Of a stretch of DNA of 41,277 nt, positions 7,201 through 29,845 are shown piece after piece. This DNA comes from Deltaproteobacteria bacterium. Lineage in GTDB: Bacteria > Desulfobacterota > Desulfobaccia > Desulfobaccales > 0-14-0-80-60-11. The position numbers were made by a program, and so were the translations under genes. Location: contig JAKAKP010000166.1 in assembly GCA_021813445.1 (NCBI GenBank), positions 1 through 41,277 on the forward strand. The letters run 5' to 3'. The notes below the pieces were generated by a model. It saw nothing but the letters and a program-made list of their open reading frames with translations. It was not told where the DNA came from and did not search any database. Position 1 is the stretch's first letter. Each line of letters starts with the position of its first letter.

Positions 7201-7214
7201 GCCATCATTACTTA

Positions 7215-7683: not shown

Positions 7684-7699
7684 CCTCAACTTTCTCGGG

Positions 7700-7735
7700 G
7701 GCTCCGGGGTTCTCCTGAGCCCCCGGAGCATTTTG
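7700..7735 (+). terminator. Rho-independent terminator after the PepSY gene
   Basis: Stem GCTCCGGGG (7701-7709) pairs with CCCCGGAGC (7721-7729) and is followed by ATTTT. It separates the PepSY gene from the ABC operon. Confidence 0.8.
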
Positions 7736-7746
7736 GAGAGGTTGCC

Positions 7747-9404: not shown

Positions 9405-10003
9405 ACCCAAAAATTTGGCATAATCTCTGGTTAGTTTTGGCGGCGCTGGCACTGGTGCTTGGACTTGGGGCTGCCCTGGCTTGGCCCGCAGAACCGCCTG
9501 CGCTGCGGGTGACCTTGCAGCCGCCGGTGGGTCCCTTAAAAATGGGCGACACTCCCAATTTCCTGGGCGCGGTCACCAATCTCAGCCCGCAGCCGGCCCA
9601 GGGGCTGGTGGTTTATCTGTCGCTGGTCTCCCTGGCTCCAGGGCATGAGCATCCCGTGGACCTGGAGGACTGGTCGGCCCAAAAAGCCGTGCGCCTTGAC
9701 CGCCTGAATCCCGGCGCCACGGATTTTCGCAACTGGGGCATGCGCCTTATTCAGGCAGGGAAATACGGAGTGGCCCTGACCGTGGTGGACCCCAGGGAGA
9801 ACCGACCCATCGTCAGCGACCTGGTGCCCTTCGAGGTCCAATCCAAGGTGACCCTGCTGTCCAGCCGGGTGCTGCCTGTAGCTCTTGGTGAGCCGTTGCT
9901 CATCCTGATCTTTTTCGCCGGCCTGAGATTCTTCTATGCGGGCCGTAAATGTCGACCCAATCATAATGATGAACGATTGGATAGCAATGGCGGACATATT
10001 TAA
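9401..10003 (+). CDS. Membrane-anchored exported partner of the ABC exporter
   Basis: A 200-residue protein with an N-terminal membrane helix (8-28), an extracytoplasmic domain of about 130 residues rich in beta strands, and a second helix near 170-188 (LLILIFFAGLRFFYAG) before a short charged tail. The domain has features of an immunoglobulin-like or NEW3-type fold (LGAVTNLSPQPAQGL, then a V-F-E-V strand). I do not recognise a named family. The ATG overlaps the permease stop (ATGA), so it is probably a third subunit or substrate-binding partner of the exporter. Its 3' end overlaps the cyclase gene. The function is unknown. Confidence 0.75.
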   Translation: MNPKIWHNLWLVLAALALVLGLGAALAWPAEPPALRVTLQPPVGPLKMGDTPNFLGAVTNLSPQPAQGLVVYLSLVSLAPGHEHPVDLEDWSAQKAVRLDRLNPGATDFRNWGMRLIQAGKYGVALTVVDPRENRPIVSDLVPFEVQSKVTLLSSRVLPVALGEPLLILIFFAGLRFFYAGRKCRPNHNDERLDSNGGHI

Positions 10004-11740: not shown

Positions 11741-13114
11741 ATGTTCGGATTGCTCCTGTTCCTGACCCTGACGCTCACTGGCTGCGCTACTTATCACCCG
11801 ATGCCGCTTGATAAGGCTGCGGTGGACCGGGCCTTGATGCCGCCGGCCTTAGAAACCATTGCCCTCGAAGCCTCGCAGATTCACCATCCCCTGCTGCGGC
11901 CGGTGAACTTCGACCTGAGAGATGGTCTGTCTCCGGACGAGGCGGCCATACTGGCAGTGATTGCCAACCCTCAACTCCGGGCTCTACGGGATCAAAAAGG
12001 CCTGACCCAGGCGCAGCTTATCCAGGCGGGGATTCTGCCCAACCCTCAGTTCTCGTATAGTCTCGACCTCCCCATGGCGGGAGCCACCCAGGGCACGGTC
12101 AAGGCCTACGGTCTGGGATTGAGTTGGGACATTGTCTCTCTGCTGAACCGGGGCGCGAAGATGGCTGCCGCCCGGAATCAGGCAGCGGCGGTAGATTTGG
12201 ACGTGGCCTGGCAGGAATGGCAGGTGGCCCAGGCGGCCCGGCTCCACCTCTACCGGCTGGCGCTCCTGGACCGGCAACTGGCCGTGGCCCGGGACGAAGA
12301 GAAAGGCCTGGAAGATAATGTCGCCACCGTCAAGCGCGCCCTGGACCAGGGGTATGTCACCATCATCAACCTCTCTGCGGCCCAGGCTTTGCTGCAAAAA
12401 GTCCATCTCCAGGTCCAGAACATCGAGCAGCAGCGGGAGCAGGAGCGCCTGGCCCTGAACCAGGCCCTGGGGCTTCCTCCTGAACAGCGCCTGGCTTTGC
12501 CGGCGCACCTGGAACCCCCGTCTCTCCAGACACTGCCATCCCTTGAGGAAATCAGCCGGGATCTTGAGACGCGGCGGTTGGATCTCCTAGCCCTCAAGAT
12601 GGGCTATCAGAGCCAGGAGGAGCGCCTCCGGGCGGCCATCTTGGCCCAGGTTCCCAGGATAAATATCGGTTTTGCCCATGCCAGCGACACCACCCATGTC
12701 ATTACCACGGGCTTTGCAGTCACCATCGACCTGCCCATTTTCAACCGCAACCAGGGAAACATTGCCATCGAAAAAGCGACCCGGCAGAAGCTCTTCGATG
12801 AATATATCAGCCGCCTCTTTACCGCCCGGGTTGACGTGGCGCGGCTTCTGGCCAATATGGCCTCCTTAAGCCGACAGATCAAAACCACGGAAAAAGCCAT
12901 TCCTACCTTGAGTCACCTGGTGCGGACCTACTACCGCGCCTTGTTGGAAGGCAACGCCGATGTCATCAGTTACTACAATGCCCGGAATGAGCTAATCGCC
13001 CGGCAGATAGAGCTCCTCACCCTGAAGCGCAATCTGGCGGACCAGCACGTAGCACTGGAGATCGCTGCCGGCGAATATTTGGGGAGCGGAGAAAGGGGGA
13101 CGTCACCCAAATGA
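11741..13114 (+). CDS. TolC-family outer-membrane efflux lipoprotein (pump 1)
   Basis: A 457-residue outer-membrane factor that forms the exit duct of a tripartite pump. A lipoprotein signal (LTLTLTGC, Cys16) anchors it. Long amphipathic helices come in two repeats (about 55-250 and 275-440) with the usual NPQLRALRDQKGLTQAQL, GILPNPQ and PIFNRNQGN motifs. It leads an operon: the adaptor gene overlaps its stop (ATGA) and the RND gene overlaps the adaptor stop. It is more like CusC/OprM lipoproteins than the lipid-free third duct at 27381. The 113 bases upstream contain TTGACT near 11670 without a clear -10. Confidence 0.9.
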   Translation: MFGLLLFLTLTLTGCATYHPMPLDKAAVDRALMPPALETIALEASQIHHPLLRPVNFDLRDGLSPDEAAILAVIANPQLRALRDQKGLTQAQLIQAGILPNPQFSYSLDLPMAGATQGTVKAYGLGLSWDIVSLLNRGAKMAAARNQAAAVDLDVAWQEWQVAQAARLHLYRLALLDRQLAVARDEEKGLEDNVATVKRALDQGYVTIINLSAAQALLQKVHLQVQNIEQQREQERLALNQALGLPPEQRLALPAHLEPPSLQTLPSLEEISRDLETRRLDLLALKMGYQSQEERLRAAILAQVPRINIGFAHASDTTHVITTGFAVTIDLPIFNRNQGNIAIEKATRQKLFDEYISRLFTARVDVARLLANMASLSRQIKTTEKAIPTLSHLVRTYYRALLEGNADVISYYNARNELIARQIELLTLKRNLADQHVALEIAAGEYLGSGERGTSPK

Positions 13115-14181
13115 GATGGGGTCGAAGTATTGCGATTATCCTTATCCTAGTGGTTATTCTGACAGTGGCTGTCTGGCGGCTGCGTCATGCGGAGGAGGGA
13201 GGGACCGGAGGCACGCCGGGACCGGTGGCCAAAGTCAAGACTGCGCCCATCCGCCAAGGAGTCATGACTGAAAATATTACCGCCTATGGCTCGGTCATCC
13301 CAGCGCCCGGGGCCTTGCAGACCGTCTCCGTGCCGTTCGAGAGCCAGGTCATGCAAATCATGGTCAGCAGCGGCCAAAAGGTATCCAAAGGCAATGATCT
13401 TCTGGAGATTAAGCCCAGTCCCGATGCTGCTCTCCAACTGGAGCAGGCCGCCCAGGCATATGACCTGGCCCGGCAAAGCCTGCAATTTATGGAGCGGAAG
13501 TTTGAGCTCAAGCTAGCCACCAATGACCAGGTGCTCCAGGCCCAGCAGGCCCTGCAACAGGCCCAACTGCGCCTGGAAAGCATGAAGAAGCGCGGCGTTG
13601 GGGCTCCCCGCATCATTCATGCCGATGTGGGAGGGTTGATTAAGAAGGTTTTCGCCCAAGAGGGGGCCATAGTTCCGGCTGGCAACCCCTTGCTGGAAAT
13701 CGTGGCGCAAAATCGCCTGGAAGTTCGCCTGGGGGTTGAGCCGGACGATATTAACCGGGTGGCGCCCAATCAGTCAGTGTCATTAACCAGGGTGAATGTC
13801 CCTGCGGCCCCAGCGGTTACCGGCCACATCCGTAAGGTTTCCTATGGCGTAGATCCTGCCACGCGGCTGGTTGACGTGTTTGTGACCCTCCCCACAGGGG
13901 CCGAGTTTTTGCTGGGCGAATCCACCTCCGGAGAAATCACCGTGGCCACGGTCCAGGGGCTGATCGTGCCCCACTCGGCCGTTCTGCCCGAGGGCCAGGG
14001 TTACAGCCTGTTTACCATCAAAGATAATCGGGCCGTGAAACACCTGGTCCAGGTAGGTCTCCGCAATGACCGGGAGGTAGAAATCAAGGGGGGGGACTTG
14101 CAGGCCGGCGAGCCGGTAGTGGTGTTGGGGAATTACGAACTCAAGGACGGCATGGCGGTAAAGGTCGAGGCTACGCCGTGA
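13111..14181 (+). CDS. RND periplasmic adaptor (membrane fusion protein, pump 1)
   Basis: A 356-residue adaptor linking inner-membrane pump and duct. It has an N-terminal membrane anchor (8-24) and then a complete barrel-sandwich. The first lipoyl half ends in SSGQKVSKGNDLLEI, the coiled-coil hairpin is short (about 105-160), and the second half is GLIKKVFAQEGAIVPAGNPL. A beta-barrel and a membrane-proximal domain follow (IVPHSAVLPEG). Start ATG overlaps the duct gene by four bases. No His/Met-rich metal-binding tail is seen, so the substrate is open: a metal, a lipid or a drug. Confidence 0.92.
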   Translation: MRWGRSIAIILILVVILTVAVWRLRHAEEGGTGGTPGPVAKVKTAPIRQGVMTENITAYGSVIPAPGALQTVSVPFESQVMQIMVSSGQKVSKGNDLLEIKPSPDAALQLEQAAQAYDLARQSLQFMERKFELKLATNDQVLQAQQALQQAQLRLESMKKRGVGAPRIIHADVGGLIKKVFAQEGAIVPAGNPLLEIVAQNRLEVRLGVEPDDINRVAPNQSVSLTRVNVPAAPAVTGHIRKVSYGVDPATRLVDVFVTLPTGAEFLLGESTSGEITVATVQGLIVPHSAVLPEGQGYSLFTIKDNRAVKHLVQVGLRNDREVEIKGGDLQAGEPVVVLGNYELKDGMAVKVEATP

Positions 14182-17100
14182 CGTTCACTGACTGGATTCA
14201 GGCCCACCGTCGCTCCCTGCTCTTCATTATGGCGGTCATGGCCGGAGCCGGGTTGATCAGCATATTCAGCCTGCCAGTGGCCCTGTTCCCCCGGACCAAT
14301 TTCCCCAGGATTGAAGTGAGCCTGGACGCGGGTGACCGTCCCGCCGAACGCATGGCCATCGAGGTCACCTACCCGGTGGAAGAGGCCATCCGCTCCGTAC
14401 CCGGCGTCCTCGACATTCGTTCCACTACCAGCCGGGGCAGTGCCGATATCTCCGTCAATTTCCAGTGGGGCCAGGACATGGTGGCTGCCATGCTCCAGGT
14501 GGAGTCGGCCATCAACCAGGTCATGGCCACCCTGCCTGCCGGCACCGCCTTCCGGGTGCGGCGCATGGACCCCACCGTCTTCCCGGTGCTGGCCTATAGC
14601 CTGACTTCGAAAACTCACTCCCTGGTTGAACTGCGGGACATCGCCCTGTATCAATTGCGGCCGTTGCTTTCCGCGGTGCCCGGCGTAGGCCGGGTGGGGG
14701 TGGGAGGCGGCGCCCAAGCGGAGTACCACGTGGTGGTCGATCCGTCTCGGCTGGCCAGCTATCATCTCTCCCTGGATGAAGTAGCCCGGGCCGTTTCCGC
14801 CGCCAATATCATTACCGCGGTGGGCCGGCTGGAAGACCATTACAAGCTTTACCTGGTGGTTTCCGACACCCGCTTCCATGCCTTAAAACAGATCGGGCAA
14901 ACCATTCTGCGCTCGGGTAAAGACGGCCTGGTGCGTCTGGATGATATTGCCCAAGTCATTGCGGCTACGGCCCCCCAGTGGACCCGGGTCACCGCCGATG
15001 GCCGTGACGCCGTAATCTTTCAGGTCTACCAGCAGCCCGGTGGCAATACCGTGCAGATTGCCACAGATATCAAAAAGGAACTGGCCGGGTTTCGGGGGCA
15101 CCTGCCCGCGGGGGTCACCATCGCCAACTGGTACGACCAGAGCCAGTTGATCCTGGCTTCCGCCGCCAGCGTCCGGGACGCCATTCTCATCGGGGTGCTC
15201 TGTGCGGTCCTGATTTTATGGCTCTTCCTGCGCAACCTCCGCATGACCTTCATTGCCGCCATCATTGTGCCCTGCGTCCTGGGGGCCACCATCCTGCTCC
15301 TCTATGTGTTACACATGAGCTTTAACATCATGACCCTGGGGGGCATGGCCGCGGCAGTGGGCCTCATCATTGACGATATGATCGTCATGGAAGAGCAGAT
15401 CGTCCGGAGAATGCGGGAGGCGGTCATGAGCCATAAATTGAGCGTCATGGCGGCCATGCGGGAATTTTTTCAGCCCCTGTCGGGGTCGTCCGCGGCCACC
15501 ATCATCATCTTCACTCCCATGGCCTTCCTTTCCGGGGTCACCGGCGCGTTTTTCAAGTCCCTGTCCCTGACCATGGCCGCCAGCCTGGTCATCTCCTTCC
15601 TGATGGCCTGGCTGGCCGTGCCGCTACTGGCCGCACATCTGCTTCGGGCCGAGGACGCCCAACAAGAGGAAGGCGGCTTCTGGACCTTGCGCTGCCACCT
15701 CGCCTATGACGCCATTATGCGCCGGCTCCTTCAGCGTCATTGGCTGGTCCTTTTGGGGATATTGCCCTTGTTGGTTCTGGGCTGGCTGGCTTATCAGCAC
15801 CTGGGCTCCGGCTTTATGCCCAAAATGGATGAAGGGGGCTTTGTCATCGATTATCATGCCCCCCCCGGCACCTCCTTAACGGAAACCGACCGCTTGGTGC
15901 GCCAGGTGGAGGCGATTTTGCAGAAAATCCCGGAAGTTGACACCTATTCCCGGCGCACCGGCCTGGGGCTGGGCAGTGTCGGTCTCACCGAGGCCAATGA
16001 AGGTGATTTCTTTGTCCGGCTCAAACCTTTCCCCCGGAAACCCATCGAAAGCGTGATGGATGAGGTGCGCCGGCGCGTCGAACACGCTGTACCCGGCTTG
16101 CACGTGGAAATGGCCCAACTGATGGAAGACCTGATAGGCGATCTCACCGCAGTGCCCCAGCCCATCGAGATTAAAATCTTTTCAGACAATGCCCCACTGC
16201 TGCAAAAATTGGCCCCCCGAGTGGCCGCGACCATCGGCAAAATCCCGGGTGTGGTGGACGTCAGGGACGGAATTGTACTGGCGGGGGACGCCCTTGATAT
16301 CAGGGTGGACCGGGATAAGGCTTCGCTGGAGGGGGTCAACCCCGATGAGGTCACCCGTATGGCAGCAAACTTCCTGACTGGCGTGGTTACCACCCAGATT
16401 CAGCAAGGTCCAAAAATGGTGGGGGTGCGCGTCTGGACGCCTTCGGGAAGCCGTCACATCATCCGCGACCTGTACCGTTTGCAACTGCGAGCCGCAGACG
16501 GGCATCTCTTCCCCCTCAAGCGCATCGCCCAATTAACTGTAATTACCGGGGAGCCGCAGATCACCCGGGATAATCTGAAGCGCATGGTGGCCGTCACCGG
16601 GCGCATCAGCGGCCGGGATATGGGTTCGGTCATCCGGGACGTTGAGGCCGCACTTAAGCAGCCAGGCCTGTTGCCGGCGGGGGTGTATTACCGCCTGGGG
16701 GGTCTCTATGCCCAGCAGCAGATCGCCTTTGCCGGTCTCTTAGTAGTATTTGCAGCTGCAGTGGTTCTGGTTTTCGCCTTGCTGCTCTTTCTCTATGAAA
16801 GATTTCTCGGAGCCATCGCCATCCTCTGCACCACGCTCCTGGCTCTGAGCGCCGTGTTCATCGGTCTCTGGCTCACCGGGACGGAACTGAACATCTCCTC
16901 GATGATGGGGCTGACCATGATCGTCGGGATTGTCACTGAAGTGGCTATCTTCTACTTTTCCGAATACCATGCGTTGCCGGACGACCTGGACCGTCACCAC
17001 GCCTTAATCCTGGCGGGCAAAAACCGGATGCGGCCCATCGCCATGTCTACCCTGGCGGCCATCCTGGCCCTGATGCCCCTGGCCCTGGGCATCGGCCAGG

Positions 17101-17216
17101 GCGCGGCCATGCAACAACCCCTGGCCATTGCCATCATCTCGGGGTTGTGCTTACAATTGCCGCTGGTTTTAATCGTCCTGCCGGTTTTGCTGGTGAGCTT
17201 CGGGAAACGGACTTGA
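14178..17216 (+). CDS. RND efflux transporter (pump 1)
   Basis: A 1012-residue proton-driven inner-membrane pump with the standard twelve-helix, two-repeat plan and large periplasmic loops after helices 1 and 7. The helix-4 motif is GLIIDDMIVMEEQIVRRM, with the paired acidic residues used for proton relay. This differs from the two heavy-metal-type pumps downstream (DDAVIDVEN and DGSVIQVEN). The sequence GSGFMPKMDEGGFVIDYHA marks the start of the second loop. It begins with GTG inside the adaptor stop. I cannot fix the substrate and the pump may not be a metal exporter. Confidence 0.92.
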   Translation: MTFTDWIQAHRRSLLFIMAVMAGAGLISIFSLPVALFPRTNFPRIEVSLDAGDRPAERMAIEVTYPVEEAIRSVPGVLDIRSTTSRGSADISVNFQWGQDMVAAMLQVESAINQVMATLPAGTAFRVRRMDPTVFPVLAYSLTSKTHSLVELRDIALYQLRPLLSAVPGVGRVGVGGGAQAEYHVVVDPSRLASYHLSLDEVARAVSAANIITAVGRLEDHYKLYLVVSDTRFHALKQIGQTILRSGKDGLVRLDDIAQVIAATAPQWTRVTADGRDAVIFQVYQQPGGNTVQIATDIKKELAGFRGHLPAGVTIANWYDQSQLILASAASVRDAILIGVLCAVLILWLFLRNLRMTFIAAIIVPCVLGATILLLYVLHMSFNIMTLGGMAAAVGLIIDDMIVMEEQIVRRMREAVMSHKLSVMAAMREFFQPLSGSSAATIIIFTPMAFLSGVTGAFFKSLSLTMAASLVISFLMAWLAVPLLAAHLLRAEDAQQEEGGFWTLRCHLAYDAIMRRLLQRHWLVLLGILPLLVLGWLAYQHLGSGFMPKMDEGGFVIDYHAPPGTSLTETDRLVRQVEAILQKIPEVDTYSRRTGLGLGSVGLTEANEGDFFVRLKPFPRKPIESVMDEVRRRVEHAVPGLHVEMAQLMEDLIGDLTAVPQPIEIKIFSDNAPLLQKLAPRVAATIGKIPGVVDVRDGIVLAGDALDIRVDRDKASLEGVNPDEVTRMAANFLTGVVTTQIQQGPKMVGVRVWTPSGSRHIIRDLYRLQLRAADGHLFPLKRIAQLTVITGEPQITRDNLKRMVAVTGRISGRDMGSVIRDVEAALKQPGLLPAGVYYRLGGLYAQQQIAFAGLLVVFAAAVVLVFALLLFLYERFLGAIAILCTTLLALSAVFIGLWLTGTELNISSMMGLTMIVGIVTEVAIFYFSEYHALPDDLDRHHALILAGKNRMRPIAMSTLAAILALMPLALGIGQGAAMQQPLAIAIISGLCLQLPLVLIVLPVLLVSFGKRT

Positions 17217-17329: not shown

Positions 17330-18364
17330 TTAACTTTTCCTGGCGCGCAGGGTTAGCATTAACGAACCCGCGGCTATTAAGAAAAGGGCTATTTCTATTC
17401 CATGAATTCTGATAAATGCGTATATGTAAAGCCAGGCGATGTATCCTAAGCGATCCAGCCATTCATAATCGGGAGAAGGAAGTTTTTGCACCTGAATTGT
17501 GGCTGTACCATCTTTTGCCTGCACTTTTAGGTAATGATAAAAAAAGTGACTGGGGTCGGTCCCATATAATTCTGCCCCGGCACCTCCAGTGATTGTATAG
17601 GGAATTCCTTGCCATTGTCCGCTGAAATAGCCGTGAATGTGAGAGGCGAAGATATGGGTAACGTGGTATTTCTTAAAAAGTAATGCCAACCTATGGGCTT
17701 CGCGCTCCGGCAGGCAGTGCTTATACATGCCGCCTCTGGGATCAAAAAGCGGTACATGCATGAAGATGAATCGGGTACCGAAATGCTGGGATTTTATCAA
17801 TTCTTCCTCGAGCCACCGGCTTTGCCAGAAATCAAGTCCAATTTCATTGGCGTCGTCTAGAACGATAAAGTAGTTATTGCCGATCTGGAAAGAATAATAG
17901 AAGGGGCCGAAAATGTCATAATAAAGACCACGCCCATTTTCTTTGAGTTCGTGATTGCCGATGGCAGTTAAAAGAGGCAGGCGCAGATTACGGCGCACCT
18001 GGTTAAAGAAATAACGGTATTTTTCTTTTTCTCCGTCATAGACGAGGTCGCCAAGATCAAGAGCAAAATCCATATCGGGGTCTTGCTCTACATGTTTTAG
18101 TAATTTTTCAAAAGTAGCAAAGCTGTTCTTATTGTCTCCGAAAACTGCAAAGGAAAGTTCATCAGGTTGATTTACCTTGATTTTTTTCAGGTTGGTTGCA
18201 ATCCAGTCATGGGCTGGAACGGGGGCAAAGTGGTCATACCCTTCAATAGCCACCAATAGCACAACACAAAGGACAAACAGCCCTATCCTGAGTGGCTGCC
18301 TTTTCAATTCGCTCTTTATTGCCTGGATAAAAGGCCTCACCTGGGAAAAGATTTTCTTATACAT
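17330..18364 (-). CDS. Membrane-anchored calcineurin-like metallophosphatase
   Basis: A 344-residue phosphoesterase, the only minus-strand gene. It has an N-terminal membrane helix (about 26-44) and then the metallophosphatase motifs in order: FAVFGDNK (GD-x), LDLGDLVYDG, IGNHE, an H in IFMHVPL and SHIHGY. These are the ligands of the two-metal site. A C-terminal helix (about 312-335) follows, so the catalytic domain probably faces the periplasm. Base composition is more AT-rich than the pumps. It converges on the RND gene and diverges from the second two-component operon, sharing a 137-bp intergenic region. The substrate is unknown, possibly a lipid pyrophosphate or nucleotide in the envelope. 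Confidence 0.87.
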   Translation of the reverse strand: MYKKIFSQVRPFIQAIKSELKRQPLRIGLFVLCVVLLVAIEGYDHFAPVPAHDWIATNLKKIKVNQPDELSFAVFGDNKNSFATFEKLLKHVEQDPDMDFALDLGDLVYDGEKEKYRYFFNQVRRNLRLPLLTAIGNHELKENGRGLYYDIFGPFYYSFQIGNNYFIVLDDANEIGLDFWQSRWLEEELIKSQHFGTRFIFMHVPLFDPRGGMYKHCLPEREAHRLALLFKKYHVTHIFASHIHGYFSGQWQGIPYTITGGAGAELYGTDPSHFFYHYLKVQAKDGTATIQVQKLPSPDYEWLDRLGYIAWLYIYAFIRIHGIEIALFLIAAGSLMLTLRARKS

Positions 18365-18416: not shown

Positions 18417-18501
18417 TAAAAAGACCATAATCGTGCGGATCATTACGGAGGTGACCATCCTTCGGTTATCTGCGCTTAAGGACGAAAAATGGAGATCCAC
18501 A

Positions 18502-19179
18502 ATGAAAATCCTTCTGGTCGAAGATGATACCAGGACCGCCTCTTTCATTATGAAGGGACTAAGGCAGGCCGGTTTTGTGGTGGATTGTGCCGGCGATGGC
18601 GCGGAAGGGCTCAACTTGGCTTCGACTGAGTCCTACGATGCCGCGATAATCGATATCATGCTGCCGCGTTTGGATGGGCTGTCGTTGGTGGAGGAACTTC
18701 GCAAGAAGAATATTACGACTCCTGTCATAATTCTTAGCGCCAAGAGTTCGGTGGATGATCGTGTCAAAGGTATTCAGGCGGGGGGAGACGACTACCTGAT
18801 TAAGCCCTTTGCCTTCTCGGAACTCCTGGTGCGCATACAGGCCCTGATCCGCCGGGCCACCTCCGTTTCAGAGCCGACCACTTTGACCATTGCGGACCTT
18901 TCCATTGACATTAGAAAGCGTAAGGTGCATCGGGCTGGAAAAGAAATCCCCCTGCAACCCCTGGAGTTCGCCCTGCTGGAGTATCTGATGCGCAATGCCG
19001 GCCGGGTCGTTTCCAAGACCATGATTATGGAGCACGTCTGGGATTATAACTTCGATCCCCAGACCAACATCGTAGAAGCCCGGATTTGCCGTTTAAGAGA
19101 CAAGATCGATCGTTCCTCCAATCCCAAGTTGATCCATACCTTGCGGGGCGTCGGCTATGTACTCGAAGAGCAAAAGTAA
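18502..19179 (+). CDS. OmpR/CusR-family response regulator (pair 2)
   Basis: A 225-residue regulator. The receiver has E7, D8, D9, phospho-acceptor D51 (IIDIMLPRLDG), a Ser and KPF. The winged helix has WDYNFDPQTNIVEA and ends RGVGYVLEE. The frame continues upstream to a GTG at 18433, but the ATG at 18502, after GGAGA, aligns with the first regulator's start, so I chose it. It is a paralogue of the regulator at 2555: residue numbering is identical through the receiver and the recognition helices differ mainly at VDVLV versus VEARI. Codon use is somewhat more AT-rich. Its likely target is the operator between its kinase gene and the PAP2 gene. Confidence 0.93.
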   Translation: MKILLVEDDTRTASFIMKGLRQAGFVVDCAGDGAEGLNLASTESYDAAIIDIMLPRLDGLSLVEELRKKNITTPVIILSAKSSVDDRVKGIQAGGDDYLIKPFAFSELLVRIQALIRRATSVSEPTTLTIADLSIDIRKRKVHRAGKEIPLQPLEFALLEYLMRNAGRVVSKTMIMEHVWDYNFDPQTNIVEARICRLRDKIDRSSNPKLIHTLRGVGYVLEEQK

Positions 19180-20557
19180 AATTTTCGCCACAGTCAAGTT
19201 TCGGCTGACGGTGATGCTCACGGGTCTGTTTTCCGGACTCTCGCTAATAGTTTTCCTGATGGTATATCTCACGTTGACTTCTAGCCTGCAGCAAAGAATA
19301 GATACAAACCTGCTTGATAGCACCAGGGAATTTGACGCACTCTATCGAACCCACGGCGTCGATGCTCTTAGGGCTGAATTCAAACGGGAGTCGGAGGCGC
19401 GTGGCATAGAAAGGGCCTTTTTCTTATTGGCGTCGCCCAGCCATGAAGTGCTTGCCACCTCCAACTTGGCTGCCTGGGGCAATTTGGCGGTTCCTCTTTC
19501 CATGATGTCTCCGGACGAGAAAATAGGGTTCAGAACCATGGCGGTTCCCGGACATCGACATAAGGTGCGCATAGCCTTAAGAAAACTCGATGATGGCAAT
19601 ACTTTGGATATAGGATATTCTCTCCAGGACAACGAAATGCTGATGAGAAGGTACCGGCAGACCTTTACTACAGCTTTTGGCATAACATTGTTGTGCGGAA
19701 GCCTTATAGGGTGGTTTGTCGCAAAACGCGCCATGTCAGGTGTTGAACGGGTTACTCAGGCAGCGACACGGATCGACCGGGGTAATATCACTCAGCAATT
19801 GCCGATGGGCCATGAAGGAGATGAAATAGACACTCTCGTCACCGCATTTAACAATATGCTTAAACGAATTCAAATGCTGGTCACCGAAGTCAAGGAAGTT
19901 ACGGACAATATTGCCCACGACTTACGCAGCCCGATAACCAGGATGCGCGGAATTGCTGAAACTACCTTGACCGGTGAGCAGCGGCTAGACGATTACCAGG
20001 ATATGGCTGCGATGGTGATTGAAGAAAGCGACCATCTCGTGGCCATCATCAATACCATGTTGGAAATTGCCAGGGTAGATACCGCGATCGAGGAATTTTC
20101 GAAACAACCTGTCGATATAACGGAGATCGTCCGTAGCGCAGGTGAATTGTTTCAGCCTTTTGCAGAAGATAAGGGCATTTGCCTGGAAACCGATGTTCCT
20201 CCGGAGCCGCTCATCGTCTATGGCGACGGGACTCGACTCCAGCGCGTCATTGCCAACCTCCTGGATAACGCCATCAAGTATTCCTCTAATGGCAAGGTCC
20301 GTCTGGTTGCGAAAGGAATTCCTTCCAAGGTACTGGTCTCAGTTATAGACTCAGGCATAGGAATATCTGATAAAGATTTACCTCACATATTTGAGCGCTT
20401 TTATCGCGGGGACCAAAGCCGTTCCACCCTGGGAAATGGCCTGGGCCTAAGTCTCGCCCATGCTTATGTTCATGCCCATGGAGGAGATATCTCTGTTGAA
20501 AGTTCCCTGGGAACGGGAAGCATTTTTACCGTTTCTTTGCCCCACGACCGGCATTGA
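19157..20557 (+). CDS. Sensor histidine kinase (pair 2)
   Basis: A 466-residue membrane kinase with helix 1 (about 14-38), a periplasmic sensor of about 130 residues, helix 2 (about 170-190), a HAMP domain, phospho-acceptor His254 in NIAHDLRSPITRMRG, and an ATPase domain with LDNAIKYS, DSGIGI and GLGLSLAHAYV. The gene starts inside the regulator gene (23-base overlap). The sensor region is unlike that of the first kinase, so the two systems probably sense different signals. It is followed by an operator and the PAP2 gene, an arrangement reminiscent of envelope or cationic-peptide response systems. Confidence 0.92.
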   Translation: MYSKSKSKIFATVKFRLTVMLTGLFSGLSLIVFLMVYLTLTSSLQQRIDTNLLDSTREFDALYRTHGVDALRAEFKRESEARGIERAFFLLASPSHEVLATSNLAAWGNLAVPLSMMSPDEKIGFRTMAVPGHRHKVRIALRKLDDGNTLDIGYSLQDNEMLMRRYRQTFTTAFGITLLCGSLIGWFVAKRAMSGVERVTQAATRIDRGNITQQLPMGHEGDEIDTLVTAFNNMLKRIQMLVTEVKEVTDNIAHDLRSPITRMRGIAETTLTGEQRLDDYQDMAAMVIEESDHLVAIINTMLEIARVDTAIEEFSKQPVDITEIVRSAGELFQPFAEDKGICLETDVPPEPLIVYGDGTRLQRVIANLLDNAIKYSSNGKVRLVAKGIPSKVLVSVIDSGIGISDKDLPHIFERFYRGDQSRSTLGNGLGLSLAHAYVHAHGGDISVESSLGTGSIFTVSLPHDRH

Positions 20558-20680: not shown

Positions 20681-21283
20681 ATGGTGAAACTCGAATCGCT
20701 TAATCGCGCCTTTTTCTTGAAAATCAACGCTGGTCCTGCCGTTCCGGCTTGGATTGTCGATGGAGCCACGCTCATTGCCAACTATTTGATCTACATGATA
20801 CCCATTCTTCTTCTTGGCATGTGGTTATGGGGTGACGAACCGAGGCGCAGCTTGGCCCTCAAGGCGTGTCTGGTCTCCTTACTTGCCGTCGGCTTTAATC
20901 AAATTATCGGGCTTGCATGGCAACATCCGCGGCCTTTTATGCTCGGGCTCGGGCATACCTATCTGACGCATGCGCCAGATTCATCTTTCCCTAGCGACCA
21001 CGTGACCATTTTTGCAGGCATCGGTCTGAGCCTGTTGTTTAGTGGTGCGGCGAGGCTTGCATTCCTTTTTTTAACAGCAGGAGCAGCGGTCGCATGGGCG
21101 CGTGTTTTCCTTGGCGTTCATTTTCCGCTGGATATGCTTGGAGCCGTTGGCATAGCCTGCGGCGCGTTTGCTGTCGTTATGCCCATATGGTCGAAGACTG
21201 GAAGTACTATGACTCGACTTTCCGAACAGCTCTATCGCAAGGTTCTGGCAAGACTGATTTCGTCTGGATGGATACGATATTAG
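20681..21283 (+). CDS. PAP2-family phosphatase, BcrC/YbjG-like
   Basis: A 200-residue membrane phosphatase with about five helices. Motif 1 region: NQIIGLAWQHPRPF, where the classical Lys position is Gly. Motif 2: SSFPSDH. Motif 3: ARVFLGVHFPLDM, containing the catalytic His and Asp. This pattern resembles undecaprenyl-pyrophosphate phosphatases (BcrC/YbjG), which recycle the peptidoglycan lipid carrier on the periplasmic side. Hydrolysis of another lipid pyrophosphate is possible. AGGGGA precedes the ATG. It is the sole gene behind operator site C and directly follows the second two-component operon, so it is likely its target. Confidence 0.88.
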   Translation: MVKLESLNRAFFLKINAGPAVPAWIVDGATLIANYLIYMIPILLLGMWLWGDEPRRSLALKACLVSLLAVGFNQIIGLAWQHPRPFMLGLGHTYLTHAPDSSFPSDHVTIFAGIGLSLLFSGAARLAFLFLTAGAAVAWARVFLGVHFPLDMLGAVGIACGAFAVVMPIWSKTGSTMTRLSEQLYRKVLARLISSGWIRY

Positions 21284-21345
21284 ACAGCGAGCAGGGTTAA
21301 GCAGAGAGATACACTGTGGTGTTTGTTGGCGGCAGGAAAGACTTC

Positions 21346-22758
21346 ATGCGACACATGGCTATCTTCACCCTGACAGTTACTCTGGCCCTTTTTGCGGGCT
21401 GCGCTTCTTTCCATTCCCGGCCCTTGTCGCCGACGCAATCCGCCGCCGCCCTGGAAAGCCGCCGGCTGGATAACGTTAAGCTCAAGGAATTCATCGAAAC
21501 CAACCTGAAATGCAAACTCACTACCTGGCCACTCCGCTCCTGGGATTTCCCCATGCTCACCCTGGCCGCCCTCTATTATCACCCAGACCTGGATTTGGCC
21601 CGGGCCAAGTGGCGGGTGGCCGAAGCCGGCAAGATCACCGCCGGCCAGCGTCCGAACCCGAGTCTCTCTATGCGACCCGGATTCATCGGCAACCCGGGTA
21701 TGAGCAACCCTTTGCTTTTTGGGATAGTCCCAAGTATCCCCATTGAGACCGCGGGCAAACGCGGCTACCGCCTGGCCCGGGCCGGGCACCTGGCCGAGGC
21801 GGCCTCCCTGGATATCGCCACGGCCGCTTGGCAGGTGCGAAGTCGCCTACGGACGGGTCTCCTGAACCTTGACCTGAGCCGGGAAAGCGCCGCGCGGCTG
21901 AAGCGGCAAATGGCGGTGCAGGAAGACCTGGTCCAGGCATTGGCGGCGCGGCTGGCGCAGGGGGAGATTCCCAGGCCGGAGCTCACCCAGGCGCAGATTT
22001 TCCTGGACCAGACCCGTCTGTTGCTCCAGGAAGCAGAAAGGCAAACAGCCGAGAATCGCGTGCGGCTGGCCGCGGCCCTGGGTCTACCGGAGACCGCCCT
22101 GCGACAGGTGGTGATTTCGTATGCCTTCTTGCAACGGCTTCCCCGCAGGGCCCTATCGCCGGAATTGAGGCGGCAGGCCCTGCTGAGCCGGCCGGATATC
22201 CTGGCCGCCCTGGCGAACTATGAAGCAACTCAGTCCGCCCTGCAACTGGAGATCGCCAAACAATACCCTGACCTGCACCTGGGGCCAGGCTACAGCTTCG
22301 ACGACTCCGAGAATAAATGGACTTTTCGCATATCTTTGACGCTGCCGGTGCTGAACCAAAACCAAGGCCCCATCGCCGAGGCCCAGGCGCGGCGGCAGGA
22401 AGCCGCCGCCCGCTTTACCGCTTTGCAAGCCAGAGTCATCGAGGAACTGGACCGAAGTCTGGCCGGCTATCTGGAGACCCTCCGGAAACTAAAGACCGCC
22501 GAAACCTTGGTGGCGGCGGAAAAGACCCAGGAGCAGGCGGCGCAGCGCGGCTTTCAGGCGGGTGAGAGCGACCGGCTGGCCCTGCTCAGCGCCCATTTGG
22601 TTTCGAACCAAGCGGCCCTGGCCCGGCTCCAGGCCTTCTACCAGGCGCAGCAGGCCCTGGGCCTCCTGGAAGATGCCGTCAAGTCGCCGCTGGGGGCATA
22701 CGCCGGACTCCCGGCGGATCTCCAAACCAACCCCCGCCATGGAGAACATCGCCCTTGA
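21346..22758 (+). CDS. TolC-family outer-membrane efflux lipoprotein (pump 2)
   Basis: A 470-residue outer-membrane duct. The frame reaches up to 21316 (GTG), but the ATG at 21346 follows AGGAAAG and starts the lipoprotein signal (LALFAGC). The two helical repeats carry [20 protein letters not shown] and [31 protein letters not shown] is typical of metal-efflux ducts. Its stop overlaps the TTG start of the adaptor gene. It is distinct in sequence from the pump 1 and pump 3 ducts. It starts only 62 bases after the PAP2 gene with no terminator seen, so it may be partly co-transcribed from site C. Confidence 0.9.
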
Positions 22759-23810
22759 AGAATCCCTGCTCCCTTCGCCCAACTGCCGCAGTGCTGCTCA
22801 TCCTCCTGGGTCTCGGCGGGCCGCCGGCCTGGAGTCTGTTTGATCAATCTGCACCCGCCGGGGCCGCCGAACCGGTCGCTGAGACGACATCTCCGGCGGC
22901 TCGGGTCATCACCCTGGAGAAAAAGGCCCAGGAAAAGGCCGGCCTGGTCACCGCACCGCTGGCCCAGGTATTTCATGCCAGGGAACTGCGGGCCTATGGC
23001 ACGGTGCAGCCGCTCCAAGGCTTGGCCGACCTGGGTCGAAGTTATGCCCAGGCCAGGGCGCAGGTGGAGAACGCCCAGGCCCGGCTTAAGGTTTCGCAAG
23101 CGGAATATACCCGCCTGAAGTCGCTTCATGCCCAGGATCAAAATGTCTCCCTCAAGGCCCTCCAGGCGGCGGAGAGCACCTGGCGGGAAGACCGGAATAA
23201 TCTGGGCGCCGCTAAGGCGGGGCAGCAGTCCCTGGAGGGCGCCGCCCGGCAACAGTGGGGCGGGGTAATCGCCCGCTGGGTTTTCCTAAACGCCCCGGCC
23301 TTGGCCAGGTTAATGAATCAAGAAGAATTTTTGGTGCAGGTTACCCTCCCCGTCGGTGAAAAGATTGCCCCGATGCCCCGGCAGATAACTATTTTACTGC
23401 CCAGCCAGAACCGGTTGGCGGCAAATCTGATCTCTCCCGCGCCGCGCACTGACACCCAAATCCAGGGGCTGAGCTTTTTCTATACTGTTTCGGGCCGGGC
23501 GGGCCAGGTGCTGGCGAGCATGAATGTGGAGGCCCGACTACCGGCCGGACCCAAGATTAAGGGCTTCCTGATTCCGGCCGCCGCGGTGGTCTGGCAGAAT
23601 GGCCAGGCCGTGGTCTTTGCGCAAACCGGCCCGGAAAGTTTTGCGGCCCGGCCGGTGGCCACCGACACCTTGTTGCCTGACGGTTACTTCGTGACCACCG
23701 GCTTCACGGCCGGAGAGCGCCTGGTAGTCCAGGGGGCGCAGGCCTTGCTGTCCGAGGCCTCGGTTTCCCGGACCAAGGCCGGTCAGGGCAAAGAAGAAGA
23801 CGAAGATTAA
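22755..23810 (+). CDS. RND periplasmic adaptor, apparently lacking the lipoyl domain (pump 2)
   Basis: A 351-residue adaptor starting with TTG (overlapping the duct stop). The signal peptide is hydrophobic (about 10-27). After the first strand ([11 protein letters not shown]) the sequence enters the coiled-coil ([20 protein letters not shown]) after only about eight residues, without the usual lipoyl half (A-x-G-x-V, G-D-x-V-x-x-G). After the hairpin only a short WGGVIARWV remnant precedes the beta-barrel ([13 protein letters not shown]). The membrane-proximal domain ([18 protein letters not shown]) and an acidic tail follow. It is therefore shorter in the barrel-sandwich than the other two adaptors here. 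No frameshift is visible, so this is probably a family trait. It should still couple duct and RND pump. Confidence 0.88.
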
Positions 23811-26800
23811 TGGGAAACGGTATGGGAACCGCGGAATCCGGGCTGCTGACTGCGATTATCCGCTTTGCCCTGCGGCGCCGCGGCGCCGTCCTCGCTTTGG
23901 CCATGATCGTCATGGCCTACGGGCTCTATACCCTCAGCCGCACTCAGTACGACGTCTTTCCCGAATTTGCTTCGCCCCAAGTTGCGATTCGCACCGAAGC
24001 CCCCGGGCTGTCCCCCGAACAGGTGGAGACGCTGGTCACCCGGCCCATTGAAAGCGCGGTCATCGGCACCGGGGGCATCACTTCTTTGCTGTCGAGTTCC
24101 ATCCAGGGGCTGTCGGCCATTAAGGTCAATTTTTCTCCGAACATCGATGTCTACCGGGCGCGGCAATTGGTGGCGGAGCGGCTGGTGTCGCTGCCGGGCA
24201 AGCTGCCCCTGGAGGCCAAACCCCCGGTGCTGACTCCCCTGACTTCATCCACGGGGACGGTGATGGTGCTGGGGCTGACTTCGGCCAGCCGCTCCTTAAT
24301 GGAAGTGCGGTCTACCGCCCGCTGGCTGGTGAAGCCCCGCCTGTTGGCGGTTCCCGGAGTCGCCGGCGTGCTGAGTTTCGGGGAAGGGGTTAAACAATTC
24401 CAGATTCAGGTGAGCCCAGAACGTTTAGTGAAGCATCACCTGGGCTTAACCGAGGTGCTGGCCGCGGCCCGCCGAGCCACCGGCGTTCGCGGAGCGGGCT
24501 TCATCGAGACCGCCAACCAGCGCCTGGTGCTGCAAACCGAAGGCCAGGCCTTGACCCCAGCCCAACTGGCCAACGTCGTCCTGGTTCACCGGGCCGGCGC
24601 CAGTGTAAGGCTGGGAGACGTAGCCACGGTGACCGCCGCCCAGGAACCTCCCATCGGGGTGGGCTTGATCAATGGACAGCCCAGCATCGTCTTGGTGGTG
24701 AACACCCAATACGGGGCCAGCACCCTGGAGGTGACGCACCGGTTGGACCAGGCGCTCCGGGAACTGCGCCCCGATTTAGAGCGGGAAGGCCTCGCCTTGC
24801 ACCCGAATCTCTTCCGCCCGGCGAACTTTATTCACGCCGCCATTCATAACGTCCTGTCGGCCCTGGCCATCGGGGCAGTGCTGGTGGTTATCGTGCTGTT
24901 TTTGTTCCTGTTTAATTTCCGGACCGCCGCCATTTCCTGCACCGCCATCCCGCTCTCGCTGCTGGCCGGGATCATCGCCATGGAGCGCCTCGGTTTCAGC
25001 CTCAACACCATGACCCTGGGGGGCCTGGCCATCGCCATCGGGGAGATCGTGGATGACGCGGTGATCGACGTGGAAAACATTTTCCGGCGTTTGCGGGAAA
25101 ACCGCGGCCTGACAAATCCCCGGCCGGTTTTGCAGGTCATCCTGGCTGCTTCCCTGGAAGTCCGGGCTGCTGTAGTCTTTGCCACCCTGGCGGTTATCCT
25201 GGTCTTTTTCCCCATCTTAACCCTATCGGGGGTGGCGGGCCGGCTTTTCTCACCACTGGGGGCGGCTTATATCCTGGCGGTGCTGGCGTCGCTTCTAGTT
25301 GCCCTCACAGTTACCCCGGCCTTATGTCTGTTCTTTTTGGAGCGCGGTGAGTTGCCGCCCCAGGACCCGCCGGTGGTGCACCGGTTGAAAAGCGGATACG
25401 CCCACTTGCTGGGACGGGTTGAGCGACATCCCCGCCTGGTGACCCTGGGCGTTATCATGCTCATGGGAGGCGCCCTGGCCGCCTTGCCTTTTCTACGGGG
25501 CAGTTTTCTGCCCGAGTTCCGGGAGGGTCATATTATTGTCCATATGGTCATGGTCCCCGGCACCTCCCTGGAGGAGTCTTTGCGTCTGGGGGGCCGGGTG
25601 ACCCGGGAGCTGCTCAAACTTCCCTATGTGCAGAGCGTAGCCCAGAAAGCCGGGAGAGCCGAGGCGGGCGGCGAAGCCCGGGGCCCCAATGCTAGTGAAA
25701 TCGAGGTGAATCTCAAACCCGGCCGGCAACCGGCAGCGGCCGAGGCCGATATCCGCCGGGTGCTTGACCAAATCCCGGGAGCTTCTTTCACTGTCAACAC
25801 CTTCCTGACGGAGCGCCTGGAGGAGACCATTTCCGGTTACGGGGCCGCGGTGGTTATCAATATCTTCGGCAACGACCTGGATGTCCTGGACCAAAAGGGT
25901 CAGGAGATCGCCGCGGTGCTGCAAAAGATCCCCGGGGCGGCGGATATCCAGGTGCAATCCCGGACCGGCGCCCCTCAAGTCGCCATCCGGCTTAAGAAAG
26001 CGGCGCTACTGCGCTGGGGGCTGGACCCGGTGAGCGTTTTAGACGCCGTGCATACTGCCTATCAAGGAAGCCTCGTGGGCCAGATTTACCAAGGCGAGCG
26101 TGTCTTCGATACCACGGTGATTCTGCCCCCCCGGGAGCGGCAGACGGTGGCAGCCATTGGCCAATTGCCGGTGCGTAGTCCCAGCGGGACTTATCTGCCT
26201 CTGAAGGAGTTGGCCACCATCCAGGCCACATCCGGCCGTTTCGCCGTTCTGCATCAAGGCGGTCGGCGGGTCCAGACCGTAACCTGCAATGTCAGCGGCC
26301 GCAACAGCAACACTTTTGTGGCCGAGGCCAGGAGGCGTATCCTTTCGCAAGTTTCTTTTCCGGCGGGCGCCTACGTGGAATTTACCGGCACCGCCGCGGC
26401 CCAGGCCCGGGCCCAACGAGACCTGCTCTTCCACGCCCTTTTGGCTGCCGTGGGCATTGTGTTACTTGTCTCCGCCATCGCCGGCCATTGGCGCAATGTC
26501 TTGCTGCTCCTGGTCAATCTGCCCTTTGCCCTGGCCGGCGGAGTCTTGGCGGTTCTGCTGACCGGCCGCACCATGTCCCTGGGCTCCCTGGTGGGCTTTG
26601 TCACCGTCTTTGGCATTACCCTGCGCAATGCCATCATGATGCTGTCCCACTATCAACACCTGGTGGCCGTGGAAGGGGTGGACTGGGGGTCGGAAGCGGC
26701 CATCAGGGGAGCCTCGGAGCGGCTGGCGCCCATCCTGATGACCGCTTTGGTCACCGCCTTGGGATTGCTGCCCCTGGCTCTGGGCAGCCGGACGCCGGGG

Positions 26801-26932
26801 CAAGAGATTGTGGGGTCCCTGGCCATCGTGGTGTTGGGTGGCATCGTGACCTCGACGGCACTCAATCTTTTGGTCCTGCCAACCCTGGCCCTCCGATTTG
26901 GCAGGTTTGGAGATATAGGGAATTCACCATGA
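23810..26932 (+). CDS. RND efflux transporter, heavy-metal type (pump 2)
   Basis: A 1040-residue inner-membrane pump. The N-terminus SRTQYDVFPEFASPQV and the helix-4 motif GEIVDDAVIDVENIFRRL place it in the CusA/CzcA-like heavy-metal branch, in a subtype with two Asp residues. The second loop begins GSFLPEFREGHIIVH and contains GPNASEIEVNLKP. Its ATG overlaps the adaptor stop (TAATG). It probably exports a metal ion from periplasm or cytoplasm, with the ion not determined. A second ATG at 23822 is possible. Its C-terminus runs close to the next promoter. Confidence 0.92.
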   Translation: MGNGMGTAESGLLTAIIRFALRRRGAVLALAMIVMAYGLYTLSRTQYDVFPEFASPQVAIRTEAPGLSPEQVETLVTRPIESAVIGTGGITSLLSSSIQGLSAIKVNFSPNIDVYRARQLVAERLVSLPGKLPLEAKPPVLTPLTSSTGTVMVLGLTSASRSLMEVRSTARWLVKPRLLAVPGVAGVLSFGEGVKQFQIQVSPERLVKHHLGLTEVLAAARRATGVRGAGFIETANQRLVLQTEGQALTPAQLANVVLVHRAGASVRLGDVATVTAAQEPPIGVGLINGQPSIVLVVNTQYGASTLEVTHRLDQALRELRPDLEREGLALHPNLFRPANFIHAAIHNVLSALAIGAVLVVIVLFLFLFNFRTAAISCTAIPLSLLAGIIAMERLGFSLNTMTLGGLAIAIGEIVDDAVIDVENIFRRLRENRGLTNPRPVLQVILAASLEVRAAVVFATLAVILVFFPILTLSGVAGRLFSPLGAAYILAVLASLLVALTVTPALCLFFLERGELPPQDPPVVHRLKSGYAHLLGRVERHPRLVTLGVIMLMGGALAALPFLRGSFLPEFREGHIIVHMVMVPGTSLEESLRLGGRVTRELLKLPYVQSVAQKAGRAEAGGEARGPNASEIEVNLKPGRQPAAAEADIRRVLDQIPGASFTVNTFLTERLEETISGYGAAVVINIFGNDLDVLDQKGQEIAAVLQKIPGAADIQVQSRTGAPQVAIRLKKAALLRWGLDPVSVLDAVHTAYQGSLVGQIYQGERVFDTTVILPPRERQTVAAIGQLPVRSPSGTYLPLKELATIQATSGRFAVLHQGGRRVQTVTCNVSGRNSNTFVAEARRRILSQVSFPAGAYVEFTGTAAAQARAQRDLLFHALLAAVGIVLLVSAIAGHWRNVLLLLVNLPFALAGGVLAVLLTGRTMSLGSLVGFVTVFGITLRNAIMMLSHYQHLVAVEGVDWGSEAAIRGASERLAPILMTALVTALGLLPLALGSRTPGQEIVGSLAIVVLGGIVTSTALNLLVLPTLALRFGRFGDIGNSP

Positions 26933-28618: not shown

Positions 28619-29845
28619 ATGCTGCGCGACCTTCTCACGTCCAAACGGATTCTTATTGGGGCAGGCATCCTGGCCCTGGTGGTTTTGATTTGGTTTTTCA
28701 TCCCTGCCGGTTCTAAGAAAAAGGGCCCGGAAAAGGAGCCTGGGCAGGAGTCCCACAAACCTGGGCAGGTTAAGCTCGCCACGGAGGCGTTGGAGCGGGC
28801 CAAGATTGAGGCGGCCCCTGCCAATGTTGGCCCCATAACCAATAAAATTCTTCTTACCGGGGAACTGGTCTTCAATGAAGAGAAAACCGCGCGTGTTAGT
28901 TCCCGCCTGGATGGGAGGATAGTGAAAATTTTCGCTGACTATGGAGCGGAAGTAAAGCAAGGCGCGGTGCTGGCCGTCATTGACAGCGTGGAGTTGGGCC
29001 AGGCCCAGGCCGCCTTTTTAAAATCGGGTGCCGAATATAATGTGGCCCAGAAGGCTTTGGAGCGGGCGCGCCTCTTGTGGCAGGAGAAAGCCATCAGCCA
29101 GGCCGAGTATCTGGAGCGGCAGGCCAAGTTTGAGCTCGCCCAGGCGGAGCGGGATTATGCCGAGAACCGCCTCCATCTCTTGGGTCTGAGCGATGCCGAT
29201 ATCGGGCGCATGTTCAAGTCAAAGCCGAGAAAGGGTCCCGGCTTTCACGCTGAGGTGGACACCACCTTCCCATTGCGTTCTCCCATCTCCGGACAGGTGG
29301 TGAATCGCAAGGTCACCCCCGGTTTGGTGGTCAAACCGGACGAGGAACTTTTCACGGTGGCCGACACCTCTACCTTGTGGTGTTTCGTCCAGATTCCTGA
29401 GAAAGACCTGCCCCTGGTCAGCCCCGGCTGTATGACCGCTATCAAGGTAAGCGCTCTGCCCCAGGAGGAGTTCACCGGCTGCATCGACTACATCGCCGCC
29501 TCGGTGGATAAGGCGTCTCGTATGACCCGGGCCCGGGTGCAGGTGGACAACTCCCGGGGCCTGCTGAAAGCCGGGATGTTTGCCACCATTTCGGTGACCG
29601 CAGGCGTCCGGACGGCCCTCAGCGTGCCCGAAACTGCGGTGGTCGCCTCCGGCGGTGAGCAGATTATCTTTATTGAACAGGAACCCGGCCTGTATCTCAA
29701 GCGCGTCATCAAGCCCGGCCTGAAGGCGGAAGGCCGGGTGGAAGTGCTGGAGGGCCTGAAGGAAGGCGAGCGGGTGGTGGTGCAGGGGGTCTTCACCCTC
29801 AAGTCCGAATTGGAGAAAGAAAGCCTGGAGGCGGGGCATGATTGA
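28619..29845 (+). CDS. CzcB-like RND periplasmic adaptor (pump 3)
   Basis: A 408-residue adaptor. It has an N-terminal membrane anchor (10-28), a complete first lipoyl half (VSSRLDGRIVKIFADYGAEV), a coiled-coil hairpin (about 125-190), the second half (RSPISGQVVNRKVTPGLVV), a beta-barrel (LWCFVQIPEKDLPLV) and a membrane-proximal domain (VPETAVVASGGEQIIFIE). All four domains are intact, in contrast to the pump 2 adaptor. It overlaps the RND gene by eight bases. It delivers metal ions to, and bridges, the RND pump and the CzcC-like duct. Confidence 0.92.
   Translation: MLRDLLTSKRILIGAGILALVVLIWFFIPAGSKKKGPEKEPGQESHKPGQVKLATEALERAKIEAAPANVGPITNKILLTGELVFNEEKTARVSSRLDGRIVKIFADYGAEVKQGAVLAVIDSVELGQAQAAFLKSGAEYNVAQKALERARLLWQEKAISQAEYLERQAKFELAQAERDYAENRLHLLGLSDADIGRMFKSKPRKGPGFHAEVDTTFPLRSPISGQVVNRKVTPGLVVKPDEELFTVADTSTLWCFVQIPEKDLPLVSPGCMTAIKVSALPQEEFTGCIDYIAASVDKASRMTRARVQVDNSRGLLKAGMFATISVTAGVRTALSVPETAVVASGGEQIIFIEQEPGLYLKRVIKPGLKAEGRVEVLEGLKEGERVVVQGVFTLKSELEKESLEAGHD

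Follow-up and report, generated by a model that had tools for sequence, protein, structure and literature searches.

Can the adaptor of an RND pump dispense with its lipoyl domain? A 2021 review, in the part of its text available, lists it as one of the core domains that every RND adaptor has, and notes that its mutation often destroys function (PMC8277102). The exceptions named for missing domains, again in partial texts that include reviews of 2015 and 2026, are BesA, which has no hairpin, and EmrA, which has no membrane-proximal domain (PMC4446572, PMC13328181, PMC8277102). The question is raised by the gene at positions 22755-23810 of a 41,277-nucleotide stretch of deltaproteobacterial DNA (the window), one contig of a 4.18-Mb genome in 166 contigs. 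A first-pass annotation had proposed that its product has lost the lipoyl domain with the frame and the other domains intact, and Pfam, AlphaFold2, a family scan and a control adaptor all bear this out. We favor the reading, with a probability of about 0.8, that the product is a genuine adaptor of an OMF-adaptor-RND pump, that the lipoyl domain was lost long ago, and that the hairpin ring would stand directly on the beta-barrel ring.

The locus and the missing domain

The adaptor gene stands between those of an outer-membrane factor and an RND permease. Its start at 22755 overlaps the stop of the TolC-family open reading frame 21316-22758, and its final base also opens the RND frame 23810-26932. 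The order duct-adaptor-RND is shared by the window with L001-L003, L011, L012, L014, L015 and L018; L001, a groundwater deltaproteobacterial MAG, is the nearest named relative found. Two-component pairs similar to that of the window also flank other loci with lipoyl-less adaptors. The genes concerned are:

13111..14181, + strand, second lipoyl-bearing adaptor of the window, both halves recognized from sequence only
18433-19179, + strand, response regulator of a two-component system upstream of the operon (whole system 18433..20557)
19157-20557, + strand, histidine kinase of the two-component system, upstream of the operon
20681..21283, + strand, PAP2-family phosphatase, immediately 5' of the duct gene (PF01569, E 9.2e-14)
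21316..22758, + strand, TolC-family outer-membrane duct, partner of the adaptor (PF02321, E 2.6e-37)
22755..23810, + strand, lipoyl-less periplasmic adaptor, 351 amino acids, TTG start, open reading frame confirmed
23810..26932, + strand, RND pump, partner of the adaptor, CusA/ZneA-like, with DDAVIDVEN in TM4 (TIGR00914, ZneA match)
28619..29845, + strand, lipoyl-bearing adaptor used as control, both halves by Pfam and AlphaFold2

A divergent calcineurin-like phosphoesterase gene lies at 17330-18364 on the - strand of the window, and one also adjoins the L001 operon. Genes of the PAP2, DedA/VTT or LssY membrane phosphatase type were found by phmmer near 6 of 26 lipoyl-less loci and 2 of 30 others, a weak count given that the queries were drawn from the same loci, that flank lengths varied and that the annotated PAP2 of L110 escaped detection. 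Such genes occur at 20681-21283 in the window, L001 1788-2390, L014 12019-12621, L016 896-2299, L093 11951-13102 and L089 1-474, and in L088 and L113.

At E<=1, Pfam returns no lipoyl, HlyD_D23 or HlyD_3 match for the adaptor. The other two adaptors of the window, 13111-14181 and 28619-29845, each match HlyD_D23, HlyD_3 and two Biotin_lipoyl models, the Biotin_lipoyl scores of 28619-29845 lying under the Pfam cut-offs; the first-pass annotation had assigned both lipoyl halves to each of them, and Pfam, joined by AlphaFold2 for 28619-29845, agrees. TIGR01730 (RND_mfp) covers only residues 184-338 of the lipoyl-less adaptor and stays at 47.9 bits, under its cut-off of 94.9, and TIGR00999 (CzcB/NccB) reaches 34.4 bits against a cut-off of 319.3. 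The absence of Pfam matches is partly due to sequence divergence, and the argument leans on a structural model and its control.

The AlphaFold2 monomer model was built from an alignment of 10 sequences (A2) and has a mean pLDDT of 79.6 and a pTM of 0.60. The 10-residue pLDDT means are 83-98 over residues 51 to 220, and 88-98 in the hairpin and the elbow that follows it; the angles between domains are uncertain, given the 10 sequences, the pTM of 0.60 and low Foldseek TM-scores. The parts of the chain are as follows:

22755..22895, + strand, N-terminal hydrophobic export-signal-like segment and linker, residues 1-47, by reading of the translation (pLDDT < 50 over residues 5-48)
22965..23006, + strand, last strand before the hairpin in the AlphaFold2 model, residues 71-84, ending in AYGTV
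23007..23015, + strand, loop of three residues, 85-87, at the position of the first lipoyl half (AlphaFold2; the control has three strands there)
23016..23132, + strand, predicted hairpin helix 1, residues 88-126 (10-residue pLDDT means 88-97)
23112..23150, + strand, TolC-docking RLS-type motif R120, L124 and S132, by conservation in alignments A2 and A4
23151..23258, + strand, predicted hairpin helix 2, residues 133-168, with W168, invariant in A2, at its end (AlphaFold2)
23259..23324, + strand, two-helix elbow, residues 170-177 and 181-187, at the position of the second lipoyl half (AlphaFold2, alignments and hhalign)
23325..23759, + strand, C-terminal region after the elbow (partial TIGR01730 match; model aligned to chains of CusB, MexA, AcrA and MacA)

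In the model a beta-barrel strand runs directly on into the alpha-hairpin, and the way back is by the short two-helix elbow, followed by the barrel strand 191-197. A80 is invariant and Y81 and G82 nearly invariant in A2, and G169 and L186 of the elbow are invariant in alignments A1 and A2. The control 28619-29845, modeled by the same procedure from 10 sequences, has strands 90-94, 99-104 and 117-122 on the N-terminal side of its hairpin and strands 216-220, 225-230 and 243-248 on the C-terminal side. The first-pass annotation had allowed about eight residues between the first strand and the hairpin; the connection is indeed very short, and the estimate proves slightly generous, the model leaving only the three residues 85-87. 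The absent part corresponds to the middle ring of the duct, between beta-barrel and hairpin.

A lipoyl domain might still be present, built of unrecognizable residues, and a normal domain formed in this way is what the first-pass annotation had named as evidence against a loss. Family models can miss diverged domains, the proteins concerned are far from known models, and in the hhalign alignment the elbow falls against a portion of the second lipoyl half. The predicted monomer contains no such domain, however: it has three residues between strand and hairpin and about 22, modeled as helices, between hairpin and barrel, where the control has three strands per side. We consider a hidden domain very improbable, and a diverged lipoyl fold was rejected on the models of the adaptor and the control.

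Profile comparison supports homology to lipoyl-bearing adaptors. Alignment to them by hhalign gives a probability of 99.5%, an E of 2.6e-23 and 296 columns, with a clean gap at the first lipoyl half. The elbow aligns there with part of the second half and may be what is left of it in refolded form rather than a new element. The model aligns to chains of CusB, MexA, AcrA and MacA over about residues 57-335 (Z 11-12, rmsd 5-15), with Z 12.3, rmsd 5.3 and 193 aligned residues for CusB. Large rmsd values are expected for hinged domains. Foldseek TM-scores to whole adaptors do not exceed 0.42 among the 50 matches listed. Purely helical entries (F-BAR domains, OprM) also reach Z of about 10, and the fold scores are therefore read jointly with the hhalign profile match. 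Since homology is present and the lipoyl domain is absent, the adaptor is a homologous but non-canonical branch of the RND-associated periplasmic adaptors (PAP/MFP) and not a four-domain member.

Recurrence, selection and descent

The source assembly is fragmented, in 166 contigs, and gene damage or mis-assembly, through a recent deletion, a frameshift or decay to a pseudogene, might produce a shortened adaptor. The frame is intact, however, and the architecture is common to many independent genomes and plasmids: it is found in L001 (81% identity), L002 (54%), L003 (50%), a paralogue in the same genome (72-73%) and many distant loci. The ratios of non-synonymous to synonymous substitution rates (NG86) are 0.102/0.318 = 0.32 against L001, 0.166/0.833 = 0.20 against the paralogue and 0.311/0.907 = 0.34 for the pair L002-L003; within the hairpin and elbow they are 0.074/0.257 = 0.29 (L001) and 0.145/0.837 = 0.17 (paralogue). 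By these ratios the adaptor gene is under purifying selection. The recurrence of the architecture across loci, together with dN/dS values of 0.20-0.34, makes chance, a pseudogene or an assembly error appear very unlikely, and a recently damaged gene is scarcely credible; pseudogene and assembly error were rejected on the recurrence in independent records and on dN/dS. The loss extends beyond 22755-23810: it is an old property of a whole pump clade and no local deletion.

The paralogue belongs to a second operon of duct, lipoyl-less adaptor and pump in the same genome (G000:C96, L096 5030-10594), its adaptor sharing 72% and its pump 83% identity with those of the window.

A tblastn search of plasmids found 51 records, 39 of which cover >=80% of the query at a single site; the genera include Acetobacter, Burkholderia, Gluconobacter, Rhodanobacter, Bradyrhizobium and Acidithiobacillus. 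Eight of the records, the loci L011-L018, were read, and all eight are lipoyl-less. Among 297 sampled genomes of the phylum, 16 have a profile match at E<=1e-10, full-length in six (G000, G066, G201, G126, G145, G196) and partial in ten. Four of the ten partial matches were read: G117 (L070) is also lipoyl-less, and G123, G165 and G222 (L072, L073, L075) carry lipoyl halves. Within the same class, a full-length match occurs in 2 of 29 genomes, both among the seven of the window's genus. Lipoyl-less adaptors are patchy in this lineage; elsewhere the sampling covers mainly plasmids.

We compared 24 lipoyl-less adaptors from at least two phyla (A4; 14 from plasmids, 10 from genomes) with 28 adaptors of related pumps (A3). 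HlyD_D23 and HlyD_3 each match none of the 24 and all of the 28, and Biotin_lipoyl_2 matches none of the 24 and 14 of the 28, counts that confirm a sorting made beforehand by reading the sequences and are no independent discovery. No Biotin_lipoyl model matches any row of A4, where the sole Pfam match is one DUF4398; a smaller family scan (0/11) agrees with the 0/24.

In a tree of 53 RND sequences, clade A (100% SH-aLRT) consists of 21 rows, all 21 with lipoyl-less adaptors. Its sister clade B (100%) is mixed: L070, L085 and L086 are lipoyl-less and Hymenobacter (L088) keeps the domain; of the genera here, Sphingomonas and Methylomonas lack it. The 28 rows outside both clades, 27 from A3 and the partner of 13111-14181 of the window, all have lipoyl-bearing adaptors. 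L076, L076_2, L084 and L091_2 were omitted, with no adaptor assigned or a partial pump, and the G126 pump (L067), which has an internal stop, gave no row; its adaptor (L021), judged lipoyl-less from the sequence, forms part of A2. According to this tree the trait follows the pump and is inherited with one CusA/ZneA-like RND clade.

That the lipoyl-less state arose once, to the exclusion of Hymenobacter, was rejected: in a tree of 34 rows, to which Methylomonas koyamae and a second Hymenobacter were added, placing the 18 lipoyl-less rows in one group gives p-AU 6.7e-13, a value that comes from quick trees of the RND. The replacements of the domain differ as well. Clade A has a short loop and an elbow that starts with W/F/Y-G; clade B has a longer first linker and no such elbow. 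Sphingomonas L085 and Hymenobacter L088 align end to end at 39% identity, and 52 of the 77 gap columns by our own count fall at the two lipoyl halves. The simplest reading is at least two losses of the lipoyl domain; a regain or an exchange of adaptors in Hymenobacter is possible.

Partner proteins, docking tip and hairpin length

The partner pump scores 680.8 bits with TIGR00914 (CusA/CzcA), narrowly under the cut-off of 701.45, and among solved structures it matches ZneA best (410.5 bits) and CusA next (363.9), with MdtB further behind (259). Its residues were compared between 20 clade-A rows and 27 others, the broken pump of L015 and the window pump 14178-17216 being excluded:

25052..25057, + strand, D415-D416 in TM4, equivalent to D407-D408 of AcrB, in 20/20 clade-A rows
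25541..25543, + strand, H578 at the position of M573 of CusA, H in 18/20 clade-A rows
25823..25825, + strand, E672 at the position of M672 of CusA, E in 20/20 clade-A rows and also in 18/27 others

The methionine triad of CusA for Cu(I)/Ag(I), M573/M623/M672, is replaced by H578/A628/E672. Genes for metal-type two-component systems, chromate resistance, cation diffusion and P-type ATPases lie near some of the loci, though not near every one. A metal cation is the probable substrate, though one different from Cu(I)/Ag(I), an assignment drawn from homology and some neighbors, with other loci having no metal-type neighbors; the Asp-Asp pair in TM4, also present in 9 of the 27 other rows, is drug-pump-like and counts against it.

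Compensating insertions in the partners were a candidate that both row comparisons rejected. None was found in the RND among the 20 clade-A and 27 other rows, where six isolated single columns differ by clade, nor in the barrel helices of the OMF among 17 partners of lipoyl-less and 25 of lipoyl-bearing adaptors, which differ in an N-terminal extension, a three-residue insert at 278-280, two single-column gaps and the tail. A duct gene adjoins 17 of the 21 clade-A pumps, and none was found in the stretches covered for the other four (L013, L017, L066, L069); in Sphingomonas, of clade B, it follows the pump. In the stretches read, one adaptor gene lies between duct and pump.

These comparisons bear on whether another adaptor, mixing into the ring, supplies the missing layer in trans. 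TriA and TriB are thought to mix in one adaptor ring, and the window does encode two lipoyl-bearing adaptors. Against this stand the lone adaptor gene that unrelated bacteria carry between duct and pump and the lack of any clade-specific extra domain in the partner RND and OMF, and such mixing seems quite unlikely.

The adaptor carries an alpha-helical hairpin with an R/L/S tip motif. R120, L124 and S132 are invariant in 10/10 rows of A2, and R120 and L124 are conserved at >=90% across the 24 rows of A4. The spacing is R-x3-L-x7-S, one residue longer than the R-x3-L-x6-S of AcrA. Since the motif is retained, docking to the TolC tip is probably kept. The first-pass annotation had suggested that contact with the duct could change; the retained R-x3-L-x7-S points the other way, to a tip contact that probably persists.

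The same motif bears on a further alternative, that the adaptor serves an RND pump without a sealed duct, with a more direct OMF-RND contact of the kind suggested for BesABC. With one layer gone the OMF lies closer to the RND, and BesA shows, in the part of the report available, that adaptors can lose a duct-building part (PMC3807786). Conservation of the hairpin and its docking motif, however, is unexpected if the hairpin ring is unused, and we find this arrangement unlikely.

Under the favored reading, a duct one layer shorter, the hairpin might make up for the missing length. Its helices have 39 and 36 residues, against 32 and 27 in the control 28619-29845, and the 7-9 additional residues per helix correspond to about 10-13 angstrom at 1.5 angstrom per residue. 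The lipoyl layer measures about 25-30 angstrom, so that the modeled compensation is partial at best, and it is absent in L068, L069, L087 and L089. The adaptors of these four loci have exactly seven residues, one heptad, fewer in each hairpin helix, and strict length compensation was rejected on this ground. Matched heptad deletions would be expected of a working coiled coil that changes its length.

Proposed assembly and comparison with known adaptors

By analogy with CusBA, AcrAB and MacA, six copies of the adaptor would form a ring. The membrane-proximal and beta-barrel domains would hold the RND trimer in the manner of CusBA or AcrAB, the hairpin ring would rise straight from the beta-barrel ring, and the retained R/L/S tip would dock to the TolC tip. 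The duct would then have one layer fewer, with no lipoyl ring for bracing or gating, and in 22755-23810 the gap would be partly offset by the hairpin, 7-9 residues longer per helix than that of the control.

The adaptor differs from the heavy-metal RND adaptors of the CusB/ZneB/CzcB type in having no lipoyl domain and in falling far under the cut-offs of TIGR00999 and TIGR01730. With AcrA and MexA it shares a C-terminal half recognizable by sequence (E 3e-5 to 2e-4) and an overall fold alignment, but these have the four-domain layout with lipoyl (PMC13328181, partial text). MacA has a hairpin and a beta-barrel as well, and its hexamer superimposes on lower TolC (PMC4446572, in the portion available); the lipoyl ring of MacA forms a gating ring (PMC8277102, likewise in part), for which 22755-23810 has no lipoyl domain. 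EmrA is also an adaptor minus one domain (PMC4158417, PMC4446572, PMC13328181, as far as the accessible texts go), but the domain it lacks is the membrane-proximal one, and it keeps the lipoyl domain and serves an MFS pump. As in BesA of Borrelia, one standard domain is gone and no extra partner domains compensate (PMC3807786, available part); BesA lacks the hairpin and keeps the lipoyl domain, and 22755-23810 is the reverse and not of the BesA type.

One adaptor of the sample, L105 3832-4893 (G262), has both lipoyl halves and apparently no hairpin, and is BesA-like; this could be a local deletion.

Searches of 5.39 million papers by topic and organism, with preprints and most subscription papers outside their scope, found no description of lipoyl-less adaptors and nothing on these loci, the available parts of PMC8679861 and PMC11128244 included. 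On balance we think that cation-type RND pumps of a widespread class, often plasmid-borne in our sample, have dropped the lipoyl ring of their adaptor at least twice, in two clades with different connectors, and that the hairpin tube would stand directly on the beta-barrel ring. If so, the bracing, signal relay and gating attributed to the lipoyl ring would be unnecessary in these pumps or taken over by the elbow and the base of the hairpin. A natural lipoyl-less clade beside lipoyl-bearing relatives would offer a clean comparison for assembly, signal relay and sealing.

The annotation of lipoyl-less adaptors is uneven—'hypothetical protein', 'metal transporter', none at all, or adaptor—which fits the loss of the domain, and with 24 of 24 giving no match to an adaptor model in Pfam, a new family model is called for. 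Some plasmid loci show irregular genes. In L016 (Massilia plasmid), positions 5827-9975 hold an unannotated adaptor and RND pump in one frame of 1383 codons, the C-terminus of the adaptor being unlike the family, as if frameshifted. The RND pump of L015 (Gluconobacter pGOX1) appears broken or shortened and is annotated only as a short fragment, with the adaptor frame intact, and in hit H36 (Komagataeibacter xylinus plasmid) the RND pump appears in three pieces.
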